DNA of 9,397 nt from Desulfuromonas sp. SDB (GTDB taxonomy: Bacteria; SDB-A): assembly GCA_001412365.1 (NCBI GenBank), contig LKUE01000165.1, positions 1-9,397 on the forward strand, given 5' to 3'. Positions 122 through 9,397 of the stretch are shown here, in pieces (position 1 is the stretch's first letter; each line of letters starts with the position of its first letter). A program made the translations under genes and the position numbers. The notes beneath the pieces are model-generated. The model saw nothing but the letters and a program-made list of their open reading frames with translations, was not told the DNA's origin and ran no database searches.

Positions 122-1159
122 TTAAAGCAAGGGCGAACCGTTGTAAGTTATAGATTTAAGTATAATTTCTGCATTTCTAACTGCTTCATCCGGCAAAGGG
201 GCATAATGAAGGGGGGTATTATGTGACTGACCGTCGTGTATCATCCACCAAATTAAATTAACCACTTCTTCAGCCCTGGTTTTTTCCCGGTTATCATAAT
301 TCTGTTCCTGGTAGAGAATTATCCAGGTAAATCCGCTGATAGGATAACCATTGGAAGCATCTGTATTGGTGATGGAAACTCTCATATCCGCGGGCAGGGC
401 AACATTTGCCGATGCGCTGACTGACTCTATGCTGGGTTGAATGAAATTTCCGCTTTTATTTTTAATATGAGCAGTGGGCATATCATTACTCAAGGCGTAT
501 ATTAATTCTACGTAACCAACTGCTCCCGGTGTTGATTTAACCAACCCCGCCACCCCGGGATTTCCGCTGGCGCCTAAACCAGTAGGCCACTCCAATGATT
601 TTCCTCTGCCCACCGTCTCTTCCCATTCCTTGCTGACTTTGCAGAGATAATCGCTGAATATAAAAGTGCTTCCGCTACCGTCTGAACGATGGACAACAAT
701 AATATCCATATCGGGAAGTTCTACTCCTGGATTCAACTGGGAAATTTTATTATCATTCCATTTGGTGATTTTTCCCAAAAATATATCACTAACCACTTCC
801 GAAGTAAGTTTTAAAGTGGGATTACCCGGCAAATTGTAGGTAACTACAATAGCTCCCAGGCAGGTGGGAATATGCAAAATCTGGTTGTTTTCCGCCATAG
901 ACATTTCCTCCTCACTCATAAAGGCATCAGTCCCTCCAAAATCAACCGTCCGGTCAAGAAGACTCCGGATTCCACCGCCAGAGCCAATTCCCTGGTAGTT
1001 AACCTGAATCCCGGTTGACTGTTTGTAACTGTCAAACATTTTAGTGTACAAGGGAAGAGGGAATGTAGCTCCCGCTCCTAAAATATCCAGTGAATATACC
1101 GTCCCTATGCTAAGAAATATTCCCAATAAACAGAATATCCAAAATTTGTTAAAAGACAT
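122..1159 (-). CDS. pstS: phosphate ABC transporter substrate-binding protein PstS, second copy, non-lipidated
   Basis: Binds inorganic phosphate outside the inner membrane and delivers it to the PstCAB transporter. It has 345 residues. A hydrophobic signal peptide (about 1-23) ends in Val-Tyr-Ser, a plausible signal peptidase I site. There is no lipobox cysteine at its end, so the mature protein should be soluble in the periplasm. PstS hallmarks follow: GAGATFP (28-34), GSGGG (59-63), DFGGTD (73-78) and the phosphate-contacting RSDGSGST (158-165). From residue 26 onward it aligns without gaps, over 320 residues, to the other PstS in this window at roughly 70% identity by eye. The ATG at 1159 has AGGAGGT about 5 nt upstream. 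It is separated from phoU by 265 nt that contain its own Pho-box-like array, so it is probably a separate Pho-controlled transcript, possibly with read-through from phoU. Confidence 0.95.
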   Translation of the reverse strand: MSFNKFWIFCLLGIFLSIGTVYSLDILGAGATFPLPLYTKMFDSYKQSTGIQVNYQGIGSGGGIRSLLDRTVDFGGTDAFMSEEEMSMAENNQILHIPTCLGAIVVTYNLPGNPTLKLTSEVVSDIFLGKITKWNDNKISQLNPGVELPDMDIIVVHRSDGSGSTFIFSDYLCKVSKEWEETVGRGKSLEWPTGLGASGNPGVAGLVKSTPGAVGYVELIYALSNDMPTAHIKNKSGNFIQPSIESVSASANVALPADMRVSITNTDASNGYPISGFTWIILYQEQNYDNREKTRAEEVVNLIWWMIHDGQSHNTPLHYAPLPDEAVRNAEIILKSITYNGSPLL

Positions 1160-1242: not shown

Positions 1243-1280
1243 TTTTTTGTTGTATTTAATAAAAATATTTATCTTTATAC

Positions 1281-1319
1281 TGTTAACTAAAAATAAATAA
1301 TTTATTAAGTTTTGGTTAA
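1281..1319 (-). promoter_or_regulatory. Pho-box-like operator upstream of the second pstS
   Basis: Four hexamers on the minus strand start exactly 11 bp apart: TTAACC (1319-1314), TTAATA (1308-1303), TTTATT (1297-1292) and TTAACA (1286-1281). The 11-bp direct-repeat geometry is that of PhoB/PhoP operators, and the TTAACA core matches the Bacillus PhoP consensus TT(A/T)ACA. The order of repeats, including the degenerate third TTTATT, is the same as in the operator upstream of the porin. I could not assign a -10 box with confidence; TATAAA lies 1 nt downstream, which is closer than expected. Confidence 0.72.
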
Positions 1320-1424
1320 ATTATAAAAACTGTAAATTACCAATTTTTCTTAATATAAACTTTTAGGGAATAAATTTGGGAAAAGTGAATCTTAAATTAA
1401 AAAAATTACGGAATATGTAGTTTT

Positions 1425-2081
1425 CTATACTTCCTGAGTATGGTGTTTGATAATTTTACCTTTGGTCAGGTAAACTACTTCTTCGGAAATATTTGTGGAA
1501 AGGTCGGCAATTCTCTCCAAGTTATAGCATATATTCATCATTTTTATGGCTCGCTCTACAATATCCGGATCTTTTATCATCATGTGACTTAACTTTGAAA
1601 TAACTTTATACAGCATTTTATCCACAATATCATCTCTTGAGCAAACATCGGTGGCAAGGTCATAATTCTGATCAATAAAAGCAGTTAATGAATCATTGAG
1701 CATATTGATAACTTCCTGCTCCATGCTGGGAATATCCATTAAAACACTTAAATCTGGTTTATCAATTAAAAATAAAGAACTCTGAGCAATATTTACCGAA
1801 TGATCGGCAATTCTCTCCATATCATTATTCATTTTCAATATCATTAAAACCATTCTCATATCCGAAGCCATTGGGGAAAACTGGGCAATAATAGTTGTGC
1901 ACATTTCATCAATAAGAATTTCCTTACTATTAGCAATTGGTTCATCTTTCTCGATTACTTCATTTAACAAATCTTTATCTTTTTCAATTAAACCTTTTAT
2001 GCTTTTATAAATCATATGCTGGACATGTGATGCGAAACTGATACTTTCACCTTTTAATTTGTCAATTTTTTCCTCTATCAT
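1425..2081 (-). CDS. phoU: phosphate signalling regulator PhoU
   Basis: Cytoplasmic negative regulator that links Pst transporter activity to the PhoR kinase and prevents excess phosphate uptake. It has 218 residues, the normal length, arranged as two related three-helix repeats. Each repeat carries the family metal-binding signature: MERIADHS (88-95) and LERIADLS (188-195). The first is preceded by the typical PMASDMRMVLMILKMNND stretch. The ATG at 2081 has AGGAG about 5 nt upstream. It starts 25 nt after the pstB stop and is the last gene of the porin-pstSCAB-phoU operon. No strong terminator hairpin follows it. Confidence 0.95.
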   Translation of the reverse strand: MIEEKIDKLKGESISFASHVQHMIYKSIKGLIEKDKDLLNEVIEKDEPIANSKEILIDEMCTTIIAQFSPMASDMRMVLMILKMNNDMERIADHSVNIAQSSLFLIDKPDLSVLMDIPSMEQEVINMLNDSLTAFIDQNYDLATDVCSRDDIVDKMLYKVISKLSHMMIKDPDIVERAIKMMNICYNLERIADLSTNISEEVVYLTKGKIIKHHTQEV

Positions 2082-2106
2082 CTTTTCTCCTAGTCATCTC
2101 CTTTTA

Positions 2107-2865
2107 TCAACCAAATTTCCCGGTAAGATACTCTTCGGTTCTCTTATCTTCAGGAGTAGTAAACATCTTTTGAGTTTGTCCGTATTCAACTAATTCCCCT
2201 AAAAACAGAAATGCAGTATAATCAGATACTCTTGCCGCTTGGGACATATTATGAGTAACCAACACCATTGTAACATAAATTTTCAATTCTTCAATTAAAG
2301 ATTCAATTTTAGTGGTAGCTTTAGGATCCAGAGCAGAGGTAGGTTCGTCTAAAAGAAGTATTTCCGGTTTCATAGCCAAAGCTCTGGCTACACAAAGCCT
2401 TTGTTGCTGTCCGCCTGATAGAAAAGTTCCTTTACGGTGGAGTTTATCCTTAACTTCTTCCCAGAGTGCAGCTTTTTTCAATGAATCTTCCACAATTATA
2501 TCTCTGTCTGCCCTTTTCAGTCTAATTCCATTCAACTTGTATCCTGCAATAACATTATCGTAGATACTCATGGTGGGGAAAGGATTAGGTCTTTGAAAAA
2601 CCATCCCAATTTTACGCCTTAATACTATTGGAGAGATAGAATGAATTTCCGTATCATAAAGTCTAATTTCTCCGGTAGTTCTGGTATCGGCAACCAGCTC
2701 ATGCATTCTATTTATAGACCTTAACAGAGTAGTCTTTCCACAACCAGAAGGCCCCATAATCGCAGTCACTTTATTTTTATAAACATCCATGGATATATTA
2801 TCAACCGCTTTAGTATCTCCATAATACATCGAGAAATCTTTTATTTCTAAAACTCTACTTTCCAT
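2107..2865 (-). CDS. pstB: phosphate ABC transporter ATP-binding protein PstB
   Basis: ATPase that drives phosphate import through PstC and PstA at the inner membrane, and a partner of PhoU/PhoR in signalling. It has 252 residues, normal for PstB. Motifs in order: Walker A GPSGCGKTT (38-46), Q-loop Gln91 followed by RPNPFPTMSIYDNV, which is typical of PstB, ABC signature LSGGQ (149-153), Walker B ILLLDE (169-174) and switch His205 in VTHNM. The ATG at 2865 lies inside the end of pstA, giving a 19-nt overlap in another frame. GGAG sits 10 nt upstream. The overlap implies translational coupling with pstA. Confidence 0.97.
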   Translation of the reverse strand: MESRVLEIKDFSMYYGDTKAVDNISMDVYKNKVTAIMGPSGCGKTTLLRSINRMHELVADTRTTGEIRLYDTEIHSISPIVLRRKIGMVFQRPNPFPTMSIYDNVIAGYKLNGIRLKRADRDIIVEDSLKKAALWEEVKDKLHRKGTFLSGGQQQRLCVARALAMKPEILLLDEPTSALDPKATTKIESLIEELKIYVTMVLVTHNMSQAARVSDYTAFLFLGELVEYGQTQKMFTTPEDKRTEEYLTGKFG

Positions 2866-3743
2866 TTCTTGGCTACTCCGTTGGCAACTAAATTTGTAAA
2901 TAATACGAAAACAATTAAGAACAAAGAGGCACCCCAGGCAATACGGTGCCAGTCCTGATAAGGACTGGTGGCATAATTGAAAATAAGCAGGGACAGGGAG
3001 TTCATTGGTTTAAATATATTTAAATTCATAAAAGGATTGCCAAATGCTGTAAACAGCAAGGGTGCTGTTTCCCCGGCAATTCTGGCAATACCAATAAGAA
3101 CGCCGGTAACAATTCCGCTTATACTTGATGGTAAAACCACTTTCAATATAGTCTTATAATAAGGAACTCCCAGTGACATTGAGGCTTCCTTTAAGGAATG
3201 CGGTATTAATTTCAACGTCTCCTCGGTATTCTTTATAATTACCGGAAGCATCATCATCCCCAGGGCAATTGCCCCGGAGAAGCCGGAAAAAATCCCCATT
3301 GGTCTTACCACCCACAGGTAAGCAATAATTCCCATCACTATTGAGGGAACTCCCTGAAGCACCTCTACAAATAATCTGACCACATAGGCTAATTTTGAAT
3401 TTTGGTATTCTGAAAGAAATATTCCCGTACCCACCCCTAAGGGCACTGACATCAGGGAAGACATTAAAATTATCAGAAAAGTTCCTATTATGGCATTTGA
3501 AATACCCCCCCCTTCAACTCCAACCGGTTTAGGCAGCTTAACAAAAAAATCCCAATCAATAGCAGTTATTCCTTTTTGAAGGACATAAAATAATATTAAA
3601 AACAGGGGTATGATTGAAATAATTGAAAAAAGTATAATTGAAGTTTTAAATAAAATATTGTAAATCTTTCTAAAAAATATATGCTTATCATTTACTATAA
3701 ATGATTGATTGTTTTCCAAATTTTTATTAATTTCTTTTTCCAT
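2847..3743 (-). CDS. pstA: phosphate ABC transporter permease PstA
   Basis: One of the two membrane subunits of the phosphate importer, pairing with PstC. Counting from the ATG at 3743 it has 298 residues. There are several hydrophobic membrane segments, the first at about 32-56. The cytoplasmic EAA loop, EASMSLGVPYYKTILKVVLP, contacts PstB and is followed by the PstA-typical ARIAGETAPLLFTAFGNPF. I chose the ATG at 3743 because it overlaps the pstC stop as TAATG, a common coupling arrangement, and has AAGGA upstream at a rather long spacing of about 13 nt. An in-frame ATG at 3773 would add 10 residues and overlap pstC by 31 nt, but has no visible ribosome site. The 3' end overlaps pstB. Confidence 0.94.
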   Translation of the reverse strand: MEKEINKNLENNQSFIVNDKHIFFRKIYNILFKTSIILFSIISIIPLFLILFYVLQKGITAIDWDFFVKLPKPVGVEGGGISNAIIGTFLIILMSSLMSVPLGVGTGIFLSEYQNSKLAYVVRLFVEVLQGVPSIVMGIIAYLWVVRPMGIFSGFSGAIALGMMMLPVIIKNTEETLKLIPHSLKEASMSLGVPYYKTILKVVLPSSISGIVTGVLIGIARIAGETAPLLFTAFGNPFMNLNIFKPMNSLSLLIFNYATSPYQDWHRIAWGASLFLIVFVLFTNLVANGVAKKWKVEF

Positions 3744-4609
3744 TAAACTTTTGACGTCCTTTTGATAACCCATCTGCTGATTATATTTATAGCAGCGCTG
3801 ACTACAATCAGCAATAAACCTAACTCCACCAGTGAAGACAGATAAATTGAGTCCACCGCTTCAGAAAATTCATTGGCAATAATGCTGGCCATGGTATTGG
3901 AAGGGGCAAATATAGATGTGGGCAGAACATTGGCATTTCCAATAACCATAGTAACTGCCATGGTTTCTCCTAATGCCCTTCCTAAAGCAAGAATTAATCC
4001 TGCGGTAATCCCGGATTTTGAATAGGGGATTACCACTCCCTTTAAGACTTCAAATCTGGTTGCCCCTAATGAATAAGCGGCTTCTTTGAGGTCAGCGGGA
4101 ACCAATTTCATTACCTCTCTTATTATTGATGCTGAATAAGGTATTATCATAATTGCCAATAACAGGGAGGCGGTAAAAATACCCACCCCGTAGGGCGGTA
4201 CATGTAATTTTAATTCTAAATTTCTGATAACCGGAACTAAAACAAAAAGTCCCCAAAAACCGTAAATCACTGAGGGAATGCCTGAAAGCAGCTCCACTCC
4301 GCTCCTTATCACGCTAGATAGCGCTCCTCTTTTAAAATATTCACTTAAAAACACCGCTATGGACAAAGAAAAAGGTGTAGAAATAATCAACGCTAAAAAG
4401 GAGGTGATTAAAGTTCCCACCAAAAAGGGCAGAGCGCCAAATTCGCCCTTTACCGGATTCCATCTGGTGCTGATGAAAAATTTTAATCCCAACGACTTAA
4501 TCGAGGGCAGCGAATTAACAAACAAAGTAATAAATATTAACGATAACAGCGCCAGAATTATTACTGCGATTAAATGAAGTACATATTTAAATACGGTGTC
4601 AGATTTCAT
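3743..4609 (-). CDS. pstC: phosphate ABC transporter permease PstC
   Basis: Inner-membrane subunit of the phosphate importer, partner of PstA. It has 288 residues. There are about six hydrophobic segments, near 11-31, 62-88, 104-128, 145-165, 198-225 and 256-279. The EAA loop EAAYSLGATRFEVLKGVVIP (176-195) is followed by RALGETMA (211-218), a PstC hallmark. A stop codon lies just upstream in frame, so the ATG at 4609 is the earliest possible start. It has no good Shine-Dalgarno site: the sequence just before it reads AAGCAATTGAA. A 16-bp stem-loop sits between it and pstS. Both features suggest it is expressed below pstS. Confidence 0.95.
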   Translation of the reverse strand: MKSDTVFKYVLHLIAVIILALLSLIFITLFVNSLPSIKSLGLKFFISTRWNPVKGEFGALPFLVGTLITSFLALIISTPFSLSIAVFLSEYFKRGALSSVIRSGVELLSGIPSVIYGFWGLFVLVPVIRNLELKLHVPPYGVGIFTASLLLAIMIIPYSASIIREVMKLVPADLKEAAYSLGATRFEVLKGVVIPYSKSGITAGLILALGRALGETMAVTMVIGNANVLPTSIFAPSNTMASIIANEFSEAVDSIYLSSLVELGLLLIVVSAAINIISRWVIKRTSKV

Positions 4610-4626
4610 TTCAATTGCTTAATCTC

Positions 4627-4671
4627 ATGCAATGAGGGAGGAGAGAAGGTTAAGTTCCTCCCCCACTGCAT
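4627..4671 (-). ncRNA. stem-loop in the pstS-pstC intergenic region (mRNA processing or stability element)
   Basis: The arms at 4656-4671 and 4627-4642 pair over 16 bp in the minus-strand transcript (AUGCAGUGGGGGAGGA with UCCUCCCUCAUUGCAU). Two G-U wobbles are the only non-Watson-Crick pairs, and the loop is 13 nt. No U-run follows (GAGATTAAGC), so it is not a standard rho-independent terminator. It begins 10 nt after the pstS stop. In Bacillus subtilis, a stem-loop in this position is linked to pstS mRNA being far more abundant than the downstream genes. A like role here is inference. Confidence 0.75.
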
Positions 4672-4681
4672 CAAAATTTAT

Positions 4682-5782
4682 TTATAGAATTGCTTCTCCG
4701 TTATAGGTCATTGATCTCAATAGAGATTCCGCTTTTTTCACCGCTTGCTCAGGCAGGGGTGCATAGTGAAGAGGCTGGGGATGACTTTGTCCTTCATGAA
4801 TCATCCACCACATAAGCTTGGCAACCTGCTCTGCGCGGACCTTATCACGGTTGTTGTAATTTTGTTCCTGATAGACAATAATCCAGGTGAATCCGCTGAT
4901 GGGATAACCATCAGGAGCATCGGTATCTGTAAGTGATACCCGCATGTCATTGGGCAGTTCAACATTAGCTGCAGCGCTTACTGCTTCAGGAGTGGGTTCA
5001 ATAAAATTGCTGCTGCTGTTCTGTATATGGGAAACCGGCATGTTGTTGCTCAAGGCATAAGTCAGCTCAACATAGCCAATTGATCCCGGTGTTTGCTGAA
5101 TTAATCCAGCCACTCCCGGATTTCCTTTTGCCCCTAATCCAGTAGGCCACTCCAGTGATTTACCTCTGCCCACCATTTCCGCCCAATCTTCATGTATTTT
5201 AGTTAGGTAATCGCTGAAGATAAAGGTGCTGCCGCTGCCGTCGGAACGGTGTACTACCACTATATCCATGTTGGGAAGTTCCACTCCGGGATTGAGATTC
5301 TGGATTTGGTTGTTATTCCATTTTTTTATTCTGCCCAGGAAAATATCCGCAACTACTTGACCGGTTAATTTCAAAGTGGGATTATCCGGTAAATTATAGG
5401 TAACTACAATTGCTCCCAGACATGTAGGTATATGTAATATTTGATTACCTGCTGCTTGAGCCATATCCTCTTCGCTCATGAAAGCATCAGTTCCGCCGAA
5501 ATCAACAGTTTTATCCAACAGATTTCTAATTCCGCCGCCGGAACCAATTCCCTGATAGTTAACCATGGGACCATATTTCTGATGGTAATCCTCGAACATC
5601 GCAGTGTACAAAGGAAGAGGAAAAGTAGCTCCTGCTCCTAAAATTTCAATATCAACTTTTTCTATCTCTTCCGGTCCATTCTGTCCTTGATCTTGCTGCT
5701 GCTGTTGCTGAGGTTCTTGACTGCAACTGAACACAGTCAACATCACCGCAGCAATAGTCAAAAGGGTTAAAAATTTCTTCAT
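4682..5782 (-). CDS. pstS: phosphate ABC transporter substrate-binding lipoprotein PstS
   Basis: High-affinity phosphate-binding protein of the Pst importer. It has 366 residues. The signal peptide ends in the lipobox-like V-F-S-C, so Cys20 would be lipidated and the protein membrane-anchored. A flexible linker rich in Gln, Gly and Glu follows (about 21-42), with a run of six glutamines at 25-30. The PstS domain carries GAGATFP (49-55), GSGGG (80-84), DFGGTD (94-99) and RSDGSGST (179-186). Its 320-residue core aligns without gaps to the second PstS in this window. The ATG at 5782 has AGGAGG about 8 nt upstream. It starts 18 nt after the porin stop and is followed by a strong stem-loop before pstC. 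A lipidated PstS is usual in Gram-positive bacteria but less so beside an outer-membrane porin. Confidence 0.95.
   Translation of the reverse strand: MKKFLTLLTIAAVMLTVFSCSQEPQQQQQQDQGQNGPEEIEKVDIEILGAGATFPLPLYTAMFEDYHQKYGPMVNYQGIGSGGGIRNLLDKTVDFGGTDAFMSEEDMAQAAGNQILHIPTCLGAIVVTYNLPDNPTLKLTGQVVADIFLGRIKKWNNNQIQNLNPGVELPNMDIVVVHRSDGSGSTFIFSDYLTKIHEDWAEMVGRGKSLEWPTGLGAKGNPGVAGLIQQTPGSIGYVELTYALSNNMPVSHIQNSSSNFIEPTPEAVSAAANVELPNDMRVSLTDTDAPDGYPISGFTWIIVYQEQNYNNRDKVRAEQVAKLMWWMIHEGQSHPQPLHYAPLPEQAVKKAESLLRSMTYNGEAIL
5693..5710 (-). repeat. short CAG/CAA codon run encoding polyglutamine in PstS
   Basis: The minus strand carries six consecutive glutamine codons, mostly CAG, in the linker just after the lipidated cysteine of PstS. 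Such trinucleotide runs can change length by slippage without breaking the reading frame. The run lies in a disordered tether and not in the phosphate-binding domain, so length changes should be tolerated. The second PstS has no such linker. Confidence 0.6.
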
Positions 5783-5800
5783 TTACCATTCCTCCTATGC

Positions 5801-6829
5801 TTATATTGCCGTTTTAAATTTCCAGCGGAACTGCAGAGCAAATACATCAACCGGATCTACTCCATCAGCTTCCCAGGATAATCTTTCATAATTAGCCTGA
5901 ATCATTACCGTGTTGCTTCCATCTTTATAGGCATTCCAATTAATTCCGGCGATGATGCGGTTATGTCCGTCATCATCCACATCGGTATTTGGATCCCATT
6001 GATCATATCTTGCAACTAATTCCACATCTGCGCCAGTCATATTTTTCAGACTTAACACCGGCATTACTGTAAATCCCTGGGCGGTGATGGTTGTGTCCAA
6101 GTTGGGATCATCATCCTGATCAACAATGTATTCAAACCAAATATTAATGGGATCAAAATTAATATTTGCCACACCGGCGTAAGCCATCTGGGTGTTGTAC
6201 TCATCGTTTATTGAATCAACAGTTCCGTATTTATGATAGCGAATTGACCCCCCAATGGTGAAGTATTCAATTGGGCTGATTCTGACATTGCCCATGAAAC
6301 AGGGGTTGGTATTTACATCATCGCCGGTTTTTTTATAACCCTCGCCATTGTAAACCGCGACATTATAGGTGAAGTAATCAAACTTACCGGTAACTCCCAA
6401 TCCGTAGTCAGTTGAAGACAATACATGTTCCAGGTCATTTATATCTTTTTCAATGGTTGGATATTCCCAATCATAAATGGTTCCGAAGTAGTTTTTCATC
6501 AAACCAACAGTTATGGTGTGATAATCAATTAAATTGACAAAGTCCAGATAAGCATATTTAAGCTTCAGTCCGGCTCCATTTGCATCATTGCCTTTATCAC
6601 TGGAGAAGACATCAATGTTGAATCTGCCCTTAATATAATCTCCAAATTTTGGTTCAATTCTGAAATAAGCTCTTTCCACAGACATGTAATTCTCAGTTAT
6701 ACTATCCTGGTTGACAATAGTCCATCTGTCCCAAATCTCCATGGACAAATTCACATCTAGACCATAAGCCAAAGTTACAAATAGGATTGAAAAGGAAATA
6801 ACTGATAACAATAACTTTTTAGATACCAC
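5801..6829 (-). CDS. outer-membrane porin, probably phosphate-related (OprP/OprO-like role)
   Basis: Predicted beta-barrel channel that would let phosphate cross the outer membrane. It has 342 residues. A signal peptide (about 1-23) ends in Ala-Tyr-Gly. The mature part alternates short amphipathic, aromatic-rich strands with Asp/Asn/Gly-rich loops. Examples are VERAYFRIEP near residue 51, LKLKYAYLDF near 88 and the porin-like VARYDQWDPN near 272, followed by an acidic DVDDDG loop. The last strand, ALQFRWKF, is followed by a four-residue tail instead of ending in the usual terminal aromatic. It is shorter than OprP of Pseudomonas (over 400 residues), so phosphate selectivity is inferred from its position as first gene of the pst operon. 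The start is GTG at 6829 with AGGAGG 5 nt upstream. The next gene, pstS, begins 18 nt downstream. Confidence 0.82.
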   Translation of the reverse strand: MVSKKLLLSVISFSILFVTLAYGLDVNLSMEIWDRWTIVNQDSITENYMSVERAYFRIEPKFGDYIKGRFNIDVFSSDKGNDANGAGLKLKYAYLDFVNLIDYHTITVGLMKNYFGTIYDWEYPTIEKDINDLEHVLSSTDYGLGVTGKFDYFTYNVAVYNGEGYKKTGDDVNTNPCFMGNVRISPIEYFTIGGSIRYHKYGTVDSINDEYNTQMAYAGVANINFDPINIWFEYIVDQDDDPNLDTTITAQGFTVMPVLSLKNMTGADVELVARYDQWDPNTDVDDDGHNRIIAGINWNAYKDGSNTVMIQANYERLSWEADGVDPVDVFALQFRWKFKTAI

Positions 6830-6905
6830 AGATTCCTCCTTGTTTTTGTTTTAGCAGTATCCAGTATACAGATACACTTCTGGTATTATTCCTGAAAAAA
6901 CTCTC

Positions 6906-6925
6906 AAGCCATAATTTAATGGCTT
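6906..6925 (-). other. small hairpin in the porin leader followed by a T-run
   Basis: AAGCCAT (6906-6912) and ATGGCTT (6919-6925) form a perfect 7-bp stem with a 6-nt loop. In the transcribed minus strand it is followed, after the 5 nt GAGAG, by six Ts. This loosely resembles an attenuator, but the gap before the T-run and the short stem make termination here doubtful. Confidence 0.3.
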
Positions 6926-6953
6926 CTAATTTCTTCAAAAAACAGAACAAATA

Positions 6954-6960
6954 ACCTCCT
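6954..6960 (-). promoter_or_regulatory. extra Shine-Dalgarno-like sequence in the porin-pst leader
   Basis: The minus strand reads GAAAGGAGGTTAT here, about 120 nt upstream of the porin's own ribosome site. It lies about 45 nt downstream of the Pho-box-like array. GAAAGGAGG is the form of the mRNA-stabilising SD (STAB-SD) known from Bacillus thuringiensis cry3 leaders. A TTG 4 nt downstream opens a 43-codon frame (6819-6950) whose stop overlaps the porin start, so a leader peptide is an alternative. Neither role is proven. Confidence 0.4.
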
Positions 6961-7005
6961 TTCCCATAGTTTTTCTAAGTTTTGGAAAAAAAGTTAAAAT
7001 AGCTG

Positions 7006-7044
7006 TGTTAACTGTTAATAAAAATAATGTTAAATTTCAGTTAA
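7006..7044 (-). promoter_or_regulatory. Pho-box-like operator upstream of the porin-pstSCAB-phoU operon
   Basis: Four hexamers on the minus strand start exactly 11 bp apart: TTAACT (7044-7039), TTAACA (7033-7028), TTTATT (7022-7017) and TTAACA (7011-7006). This is the direct-repeat geometry of PhoB/PhoP sites with a Bacillus-like TTAACA core. It begins 8 nt after the kinase stop codon and lies about 180 nt upstream of the porin start, so the operon probably starts its own transcript here. The outer units are also part of a 9-bp inverted repeat (TGTTAACTG at 7006-7014, CAGTTAACA at 7038-7046). Confidence 0.78.
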
Positions 7045-7052
7045 CAAAAAAT

Positions 7053-8807
7053 TTACTGTTTAGGGAAACAAATAGTAAAAACAGTTCCCATACCCACCGT
7101 ACTGGAAACTTCAATGGTGCCCTGGTGAAGAGAAACGATATGCTTGACAATGGACAGGCCTAAACCAGTACCTCCCTGTTTTCTGGACCTGGATTTATTT
7201 ACAACATAAAATCTTTCAAAAATCCTGTTAAGGTGATCTTTGGAAATTCCAATTCCAGTATCTTCAACAATTAAAATTATACTATCCTCATCTTGTCTAA
7301 GTTTTAAGTCAATCCTGCCCTCAGGGACATTGTATTTGATGGCATTGTCAATTAAATTAATTAAAAGCTGTTCAAACCAAAATAGGTCAATCTCAATAAA
7401 TTTTATATTCTCATCAATGTGAAAATTTAAATTTATATCTTTTTGTTTAAGTTTTTCTGAAAAAATTGTAATTATATTCTCCAAAACATCCTTGATATCC
7501 ACTTCACTTAAATTGATTTTACTTTCTTTTCTCTCCAATTGAGAAATCGACAATAAATCAGTAATAATATTATTTAAGCGATCAACATTTCTTAGTATTA
7601 TTTCCACATACCTTTTCTGATTTTCCGGCAAATCTAATTGTAAGGTCTCTGCAAAGCCCTTTATGCTGGTAAGAGGTGTTTTTAATTCATGGGTGGTATT
7701 AGCTACAAAATCATTCTTTATCTGTTCTAATCTTCTCAACTCGGTTATATCATGAAAGACAATTACAATTTCTTGTCTGGGAGGCTCATTTATAAAAGAC
7801 CCACTGGCAAGATAAGTTCTGTCCTCAAGGTTAATTTCTTTTTTAATATCTCTTTTTTCAGTGGATATTTCCTTAATTAAATCATCTAGTTGCTTATTTC
7901 GGATAACTTCCCAAAAATAGTAATTAAATAAATCAAAAGATTTATCTAAAATTGATAATTTAACAATTTCCTTATTGTAAAGGACTATTCTTTTATTTTT
8001 ATCTAAAACCATAATGGCATCATTCATTGATTCAAGAATGGATTTAAGCTCCTCTCTTTCCAATTTTAATCTTCTAAACTGTTGCTGAAGTTCGGTGGAC
8101 ATTTCATTAATTGACCTGGAAAGTGCTCCAATTTCATCTTTCCGTTTAAAGAATATTCTCGCTTGAAAATTTCCCTTACCGATACTATCTGCTACATTGG
8201 CAATTTCCTTAATGGGCTTGGAAAATGACCGGGAGATATAAATTGAAAATAGTAAAACCAATAAAATTAACACTGCCGTAATGATAATGAGATTTCTCAT
8301 CACTAAAAATAATTTTCGATTGAGGTCATCAAAATTTGAACTAACTCTAATAATTCCCCATAATTCACCGGTATCTTTGACATATAGGGGCATAGCTACA
8401 AACATGAACTCCTGGTGGTATGTAGTATCTACCCTGGTATCAACACCTATATAACCCTTACGGGCTAACTCAATTTCAGTTAGACTTCTAAGATTCATTC
8501 CCTCTTCTGCCTGCTGCTTTGAATCAGTCAGTAATATCCCTGAAGAATCAAATATTGATATTCTGTATCCGGTACGGTTGCTAATTAAGTCAACCTCCTG
8601 CTTTAAATCCGAATACCTTACTTCCGACAGTAGATGACGGACATGAATTTCGGTATTGAAACATTGATTTAAAAGGTTTTGTTTAAGATCAGCTGTTGCT
8701 TTTAATTTAAGTTCCTGAAAAGTAAAAAAAATTATAAGAACAGACAGGGAAACAGAAATAAGCAGATAATAAAAAAAATATTTCCAGGTTAAACCCAACT
8801 TGTTCAT
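7053..8807 (-). CDS. phoR: phosphate-responsive sensor histidine kinase, PhoR type
   Basis: Membrane kinase that phosphorylates the adjacent response regulator when phosphate is scarce. It has 584 residues. Domains in order: membrane segment 1 (about 10-30), extracytoplasmic sensor domain of about 135 residues (31-167), membrane segment 2 (about 169-192), HAMP linker (193-245), PAS domain (about 252-358), HisKA with H-box ANTTHELKTPLT and phospho-acceptor His373, and an ATP-binding domain with N-box Asn488, G1 motif EDTGIG (515-520) and G2 motif GGTGLG (545-550). This architecture and length match Bacillus-type PhoR better than E. coli PhoR, which lacks a large sensor domain. The ATG at 8807 follows the regulator stop by 2 nt, with AAGGA inside the end of that gene, indicating coupled translation. 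All catalytic motifs are intact. The specific phosphate role rests on architecture plus the pst operon next door. Confidence 0.9.
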   Translation of the reverse strand: MNKLGLTWKYFFYYLLISVSLSVLIIFFTFQELKLKATADLKQNLLNQCFNTEIHVRHLLSEVRYSDLKQEVDLISNRTGYRISIFDSSGILLTDSKQQAEEGMNLRSLTEIELARKGYIGVDTRVDTTYHQEFMFVAMPLYVKDTGELWGIIRVSSNFDDLNRKLFLVMRNLIIITAVLILLVLLFSIYISRSFSKPIKEIANVADSIGKGNFQARIFFKRKDEIGALSRSINEMSTELQQQFRRLKLEREELKSILESMNDAIMVLDKNKRIVLYNKEIVKLSILDKSFDLFNYYFWEVIRNKQLDDLIKEISTEKRDIKKEINLEDRTYLASGSFINEPPRQEIVIVFHDITELRRLEQIKNDFVANTTHELKTPLTSIKGFAETLQLDLPENQKRYVEIILRNVDRLNNIITDLLSISQLERKESKINLSEVDIKDVLENIITIFSEKLKQKDINLNFHIDENIKFIEIDLFWFEQLLINLIDNAIKYNVPEGRIDLKLRQDEDSIILIVEDTGIGISKDHLNRIFERFYVVNKSRSRKQGGTGLGLSIVKHIVSLHQGTIEVSSTVGMGTVFTICFPKQ

Positions 8808-8809
8808 CG

Positions 8810-9397
8810 CTATCCTTCAAACTTATAGCCAATCCCCCTAATTGACTTGATAAATGAACCATAATCACCCAATTTCTTCCTTAATTTTACTATATGAACA
8901 TCAATAGTTCTATCAATGACAATCTTTTCCATTCCCCATAACTTATCCAATAAAGTATCCCTGTCGTAAACCCGGCCGGGTTTATTAACTAAAATGGTAA
9001 GTAATCTAAATTCAGTGGGAGTTAACTCAATTTCTTCTCCTCTAATTTTCACTTTAAAAGTACTGCTATCAATTAACAAATCCTTGTATTCGATGGTGTT
9101 TTGTTCTGTCTGTTCATCTGTCCTGTCCGTTCTTCTCAACACTGCCTTTACCCTTGCCATCAATTCTCTTACGCTGAACGGCTTAACCACATAATCGTCC
9201 GCGCCTAACTCCAAACCAATTACCCGGTCCGCCTCCCCGTCTTTTGCGGTTACCATAATTATGGGTATTCTCTTAGACTTATCTTCAAAACGCAGATACT
9301 TGCATATCTCCAATCCATTTACCCCGGGTAACATCAAATCTAAAATAATTAAATTAAAAGTATATTTTTTCAAAGATTCAATAAATTTTTGTCCGTC
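8810..9397 (-). CDS. phoB: response regulator, PhoB/PhoP type (OmpR family), N-terminus cut by the window edge
   Basis: DNA-binding partner of the adjacent kinase and the likely activator at the two 11-bp arrays. The open frame runs to the window edge with 196 visible codons; roughly the first 40 residues are missing. Counting from the first visible residue, the receiver has phospho-acceptor Asp20 in LIILDLMLPG, Thr50 in IIMVTA and Lys72 in VVKPF. A winged-helix output domain follows, including ELTPTEFRLL and the recognition-helix region DRTIDVHIVKLRKKL, ending IRGIGYKFEG. A TTG at 9373 is not the true start, because eight in-frame residues upstream (DGQKFIES) continue the receiver fold. In Bacillus nomenclature it would be phoP. 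The stop is 2 nt before phoR. Confidence 0.93.
   Translation of the reverse strand, partial: DGQKFIESLKKYTFNLIILDLMLPGVNGLEICKYLRFEDKSKRIPIIMVTAKDGEADRVIGLELGADDYVVKPFSVRELMARVKAVLRRTDRTDEQTEQNTIEYKDLLIDSSTFKVKIRGEEIELTPTEFRLLTILVNKPGRVYDRDTLLDKLWGMEKIVIDRTIDVHIVKLRKKLGDYGSFIKSIRGIGYKFEG

Follow-up and report, generated by a model that had tools for sequence, protein, structure and literature searches.

Gene content of the window

The stretch of DNA analysed here (the window; 9,397 bp) is one entire contig of Desulfuromonas sp. SDB, the genome of which (3.14 Mb) is distributed over 433 contigs. On its minus strand lie, in this order, phoB, phoR, a porin-like gene, pstS1, pstC, pstA, pstB, phoU and pstS2. 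The phoB gene (8810..9397) specifies a PhoB-type response regulator and is cut by the contig end, beyond which its 5' end and its promoter fall. The product of phoR (7053..8807), a sensor kinase of the PhoR/PnpS type, possesses HAMP, PAS, HisKA and HATPase domains; among NCBIfam models it scores highest against PnpS (394.6 bits; cut-off 400) and not against the proteobacterial PhoR.

The gene at 5801..6829 matched no Pfam or NCBIfam model, and is called porin-like on the basis of its position, its reading in the first-pass annotation and the conserved operon that it opens. It is followed by pstS1 (4682..5782), pstC (3743..4609), pstA (2847..3773), pstB (2107..2865) and phoU (1425..2081), and then by the second pstS, pstS2 (122..1159). 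Named relatives of PstS were found solely in Apibacter and Gemmatimonadota, with identities of about 50%. An Rfam search of the window returned no family.

The leader of the porin-like gene (6819-6950, minus strand) is some 100 bases longer than those of its relatives. It is associated with a Shine-Dalgarno sequence (6960-6955), a possible TTG-initiated frame of 43 amino acids reaching into the start of the porin gene, and a hairpin that resembles a terminator and carries a T tail (6925-6906, minus strand; fold z -2.5). It could specify a leader peptide or act as an attenuator.

Two four-unit arrays

Two putative Pho boxes, each of four units, were recognized through pattern matching, conservation and shuffled controls. 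The first (7006..7044, minus strand) precedes the porin-pstSCAB-phoU operon and comprises TTAACT (7044-7039), TTAACA (7033-7028), TTTATT (7022-7017) and TTAACA (7011-7006), in full TTAACT-gaaat-TTAACA-ttatt-TTTATT-aacag-TTAACA. The second (1281..1319, minus strand) precedes pstS2 and comprises TTAACC (1319-1314), TTAATA (1308-1303), TTTATT (1297-1292) and TTAACA (1286-1281), in full TTAACC-aaaac-TTAATA-aatta-TTTATT-tttag-TTAACA. Both are co-directional with the genes downstream, unit 1 being in each case the most gene-distal. The first-pass annotation had reported two arrays of four hexamers at 11-bp steps, in the same order and with an identical off-consensus third unit; its coordinates are exact, and TTTATT is read in both.

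With up to three mismatches allowed, the joint pattern matches the window at these two places only, and none of 200 dinucleotide shuffles contained it. A generic four-unit score, built without the TTTATT form of unit 3, reached 22.5 for the porin array and 21.8 for the pstS2 array, against 15.7 and 16.4, respectively (sd about 1 in each case), in shuffles of their own upstream regions. Among steps of 7 to 15 bp the score peaked at 11 bp alone, and the top-scoring arrays of the window were these two, one of which also scored in an overlapping register. Because no other array reaches the top scores, the genes from the porin to phoU are predicted to form probably one transcription unit and pstS2 another.

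Proposed -10 elements, TAACTT (6991..6996, minus strand) and TAAATA (1266..1271, minus strand), occupy the same offset, 48-53 counted from the T that opens the porin and pstS2 arrays, respectively. A consensus scan of the porin promoter revealed no -35 element. The published rule for E. coli places Pho boxes about 10 bp ahead of TAN3T/A (PMC1906773), and the arrays of the window lie at that distance.

Conservation in related genomes

A footprint set of eight sites was assembled from the two arrays of the window and six sites in three genomes of the same family, belonging to another genus. All three relatives retain the order phoB-phoR-porin-pstSCAB-phoU and carry the second pstS on a separate contig, and the same array was present at all six corresponding promoters (those of the phoR-adjacent porin operon and of the second pstS). 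Pairwise identity over the eight sites was 79% in the units, 39% in the spacers and 34% in the flanks. The TTAT of unit 3 was invariant (8/8 sites), as was the TA at offsets 48-49 (8/8), which opens a TANNNT-like -10 element. The p-value for two such neighbouring invariant columns in the stretch downstream (5e-5; 20,000 shuffles) is indicative only, since the eight sites are related by descent. The regions upstream of phoB in the relatives contained no array, their best scores (14.8-16.0) lying within the range of shuffles.

In the PstS tree the two proteins of the window pair with one another (support 0.96), and PstS1 and PstS2 of the relatives form a group of their own (0.96). Because the copies group by genus, it appears that each of the two genera duplicated pstS (4682-5782 and 122-1159 in the window; L050-L055) on its own, or that gene conversion has acted. 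The second pstS of both genera nevertheless carries the same operator.

These data bear on the suggestion that the arrays are chance matches, or recent copies of each other. The intergenic DNA is indeed AT-rich, and pstS1 and pstS2 of the window are duplicates (74% identical); on the other hand, the pattern was absent from all 200 shuffles, the spacers and flanks of the two arrays differ, and the sister genus, with its seemingly independent pstS duplication, has the same array. Conservation in three other genomes has already refuted this explanation, to which we assign next to no probability.

Genome-wide search and size of the regulon

The matrix scan was run with a sequence-only covariance model and with patterns. 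With unit 3 left free, the genome of the window gave three perfect matches, namely the two arrays and a third site overlapping a reading frame; with unit 3 included, and at most one mismatch, the two arrays alone were recovered. In all four genomes the full pattern occurred at eight places with at most one mismatch, seven of which belong to the pst and porin promoters described above. At the remaining place (L083; G003:C49:15454) the array has one mismatch; it runs over the end of a frame and stands 30 bases ahead of the gene of an exported lamin-tail-domain protein.

Matches with two or three mismatches were rejected as noise, the reversed control being equally frequent; the weaker candidates in the genome of the window were mostly within genes or ahead of unrelated ones. 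A match neighbouring a calcineurin-like phosphoesterase (G000:C416) had two mismatches, was on the opposite strand and was likewise discarded.

A model 54 bases long, for which the six sites of the relatives served as training set, ranked the pstS2 array first in the genome of the window (E=0.007) and the porin array 14th of 16 (E=3.8); sequence outside the units is therefore weakly conserved. Members of the PhoA and PhoD families were absent from all four genomes. Since full-pattern matches are few and weaker matches are noise, the regulon in the genome of the window seems to be small. The first-pass annotation had proposed a genome scan for further phosphate targets, and in this genome none was convincing.

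Occurrence outside the family

A strict scan of 386 genomes (units 1, 2 and 4, a TTAT third unit and a -10 element) yielded 13 matches in nine genomes, compared with one for the reversed control. Of the seven outside the family, three lie ahead of pstS or a PstS-like gene, three ahead of porins, two of them standing opposite phoB, and one ahead of an EAL/GGDEF gene. When unit 3 was left free the same genomes gave 37 matches in 27 genomes (reversed pattern, 2), and none of the 28 sites examined fell inside a long reading frame. Eighteen of the 30 matches with context, a count which includes the family's own sites, adjoin pstS, pstC, a phosphate or window-like porin, psiE or phoB.

Several of the individual sites deserve mention. 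In L138 (G081:C161) a Pho box with a TTTATT third unit lies ahead of an EAL-CBS-GGDEF protein, which suggests phosphate control of cyclic di-GMP in that lineage. In two related genomes (L166 and L161, family f113), TTAAC arrays lie ahead of genes for exported beta-propeller proteins of unassigned role, and these proteins are possible new members of the Pho regulon. In another lineage (L059:8794, G056) an array of the Bacillus-like form, TTTACA/TTTACA/TTTACT/TTAATA, is situated ahead of pstS.

The third unit

The set obtained with unit 3 unconstrained was analysed by genus. T at the second and A at the fourth position each occurred in 86%, which identifies unit 3 as a real unit; its fifth base was C in just 27%. 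Third units most often belonged to the class NTTAT (8 of 22 genera), followed by NTAAT/A (5) and NTAAC (4). An off-consensus third unit is therefore common, and no peculiarity of the window.

The Pho boxes might be real and the third unit merely a tolerated weak half-site, free to drift in AT-rich DNA since the other three protomers, binding cooperatively, would be enough. Other genera do carry NTAAC, NTAAT or unrelated third units, and those of E. coli and several cyanobacteria are also off consensus. Drift of this kind sits poorly with a TTAT that is invariant at all eight sites while the adjoining spacers are 39% identical, and with the preference for T and A at positions 2 and 4 in the unconstrained set; we consider it rather unlikely. 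Conservation supports the reading of the third unit as a maintained variant and not as decay, as had been proposed at the outset, TTAT being found in other lineages besides the eight sites. A further proposal can be advanced tentatively, and we do not favour it: that TTAAC-TTAAC-NTTAT-NTAAY with a TANNNT at a fixed offset constitutes a class of operator, present in at least eight genera, in which unit 3 would be a specialised half-site, as opposed to a weak copy, at the overlap of sigma region 4 and the -35 region.

The regulator

In each of the four genomes (that of the window and its three relatives) exactly one Trans_reg_C protein was found, the neighbouring PhoB. Among solved structures the best match to its DNA-binding domain is E. 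coli PhoB. Residues W184, G185, V190 and D192, through which E. coli PhoB contacts the polymerase (PMC3348028), are all kept in PhoB of the window and of the relatives. The recognition helix reads DRTIDVHIVKLR in the window and DRTVDVHIRRLR in E. coli, the forms HIVK, HIKN and HIRK occurring in this set versus HIRR in E. coli; this difference would fit the different sequence of the units.

A link between the arrays and the neighbouring regulator, which the first-pass annotation had put forward, is strongly supported as a prediction by the uniqueness of this Trans_reg_C protein and the conservation of the arrays at matching promoters. Factors without a winged helix could in principle use direct repeats, so that another regulator might bind here; with a single Trans_reg_C protein in each of four genomes, and arrays that follow phosphate genes across families, this is very improbable. 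Judged from sequence, it is almost certain that the single PhoB-type regulator of the cell reads both arrays.

Proposed mechanism

We propose, with a probability of roughly 0.92 for the model as a whole, that each array is a double Pho box, composed of two tandem pairs of 11-bp units. Under low phosphate the adjacent kinase would phosphorylate the neighbouring PhoB-type regulator, and two PhoB dimers would then bind the array in a head-to-tail arrangement. Of the two pairs of units, the proximal one (units 3 and 4) would cover the -35 region, the TANNNT -10 element starting 9 bases past the last hexamer. From this position of the proximal pair we infer that PhoB would replace the -35 contact and recruit sigma-70 polymerase, as at E. 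coli pstS. One operator design would in this manner switch on the porin-pstSCAB-phoU operon and the second pstS together.

In this model the TTTATT of unit 3 would be a conserved, low-match half-site holding the upstream protomer of the proximal dimer. In the E. coli model it is this protomer which touches sigma region 4 and the alpha-CTD (PMC3348028). Since the modelled sigma-touching protomer sits, by position, on unit 3, the conserved variant form of the unit may matter for activation. What looked like a flaw in the array becomes a testable element of polymerase recruitment by PhoB. The arrays also provide a precise and searchable signature of Pho promoters in poorly known lineages, with very few false matches, by means of which phosphate regulons can be deduced for genomes of uncultured organisms.

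Comparison with known systems

The arrays consist of direct repeats at 11-bp steps, lie in the promoters of phosphate-acquisition genes and are accompanied by a gene for a cognate regulator of the OmpR/PhoB family. They are predicted with high confidence to be ordinary Pho boxes, a known kind of operator.

The pstS promoter of E. coli, checked in E. coli genomes, is similar in having a homologous regulator domain and four 11-bp units, CTGTCAT, CTGTCAT, CTTACAT and CTGTCAC, the third of which is off consensus. There the box reads CTGTCATAAAA-CTGTCATATTC-CTTACATATAA-CTGTCAC, followed by TATTTT. This -10 element begins 10 bases past the last core, whereas those of the window are one to two bases closer, and the units differ, being TTAAC in the window and CTGTCA in E. 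coli.

The Bacillus PhoP box is TT(A/T)ACA. It likewise has four direct repeats of 11 bp, and the hexamer is almost the same, although TTTACA units are lacking from the arrays of the window. The PnpS-like kinase, just below the cut-off, was the only Bacillus-like trait found at this locus, and the DNA-binding domain of the regulator is PhoB-like.

The cyanobacterial SphR/PhoB box is composed of CTTAACCT with a 3-bp linker at 11-bp steps (PMC1906773), and shares with the arrays the TTAAC core, the 11-bp step and a location ahead of pst; in cyanobacteria the box also precedes phoA. In Synechocystis the TTAA cores are required for binding (PMC11126600). Several cyanobacterial third units are TTTATATT- or CTTATATT-like, some reading TTTATATT itself (PMC1906773 Table 1). 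Among the differences are the number of units, three being reported there and four found here, and the variable distance to the start codon.

The first-pass annotation had called the boxes of the window Gram-positive-like. Their sequence is neither restricted to nor typical of Gram-positive bacteria: TTAACC is a published cyanobacterial SphR unit (PMC1906773, PMC11126600), many families that are not related to one another carry TTAAC arrays upstream of pst or porin genes, the porins often being those of the outer membrane, and of all solved structures E. coli PhoB is the one nearest to the DNA-binding domain. The label is not supported, since TTAAC boxes are of the cyanobacterial form and their layout is similar to that of E. 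coli pstS.
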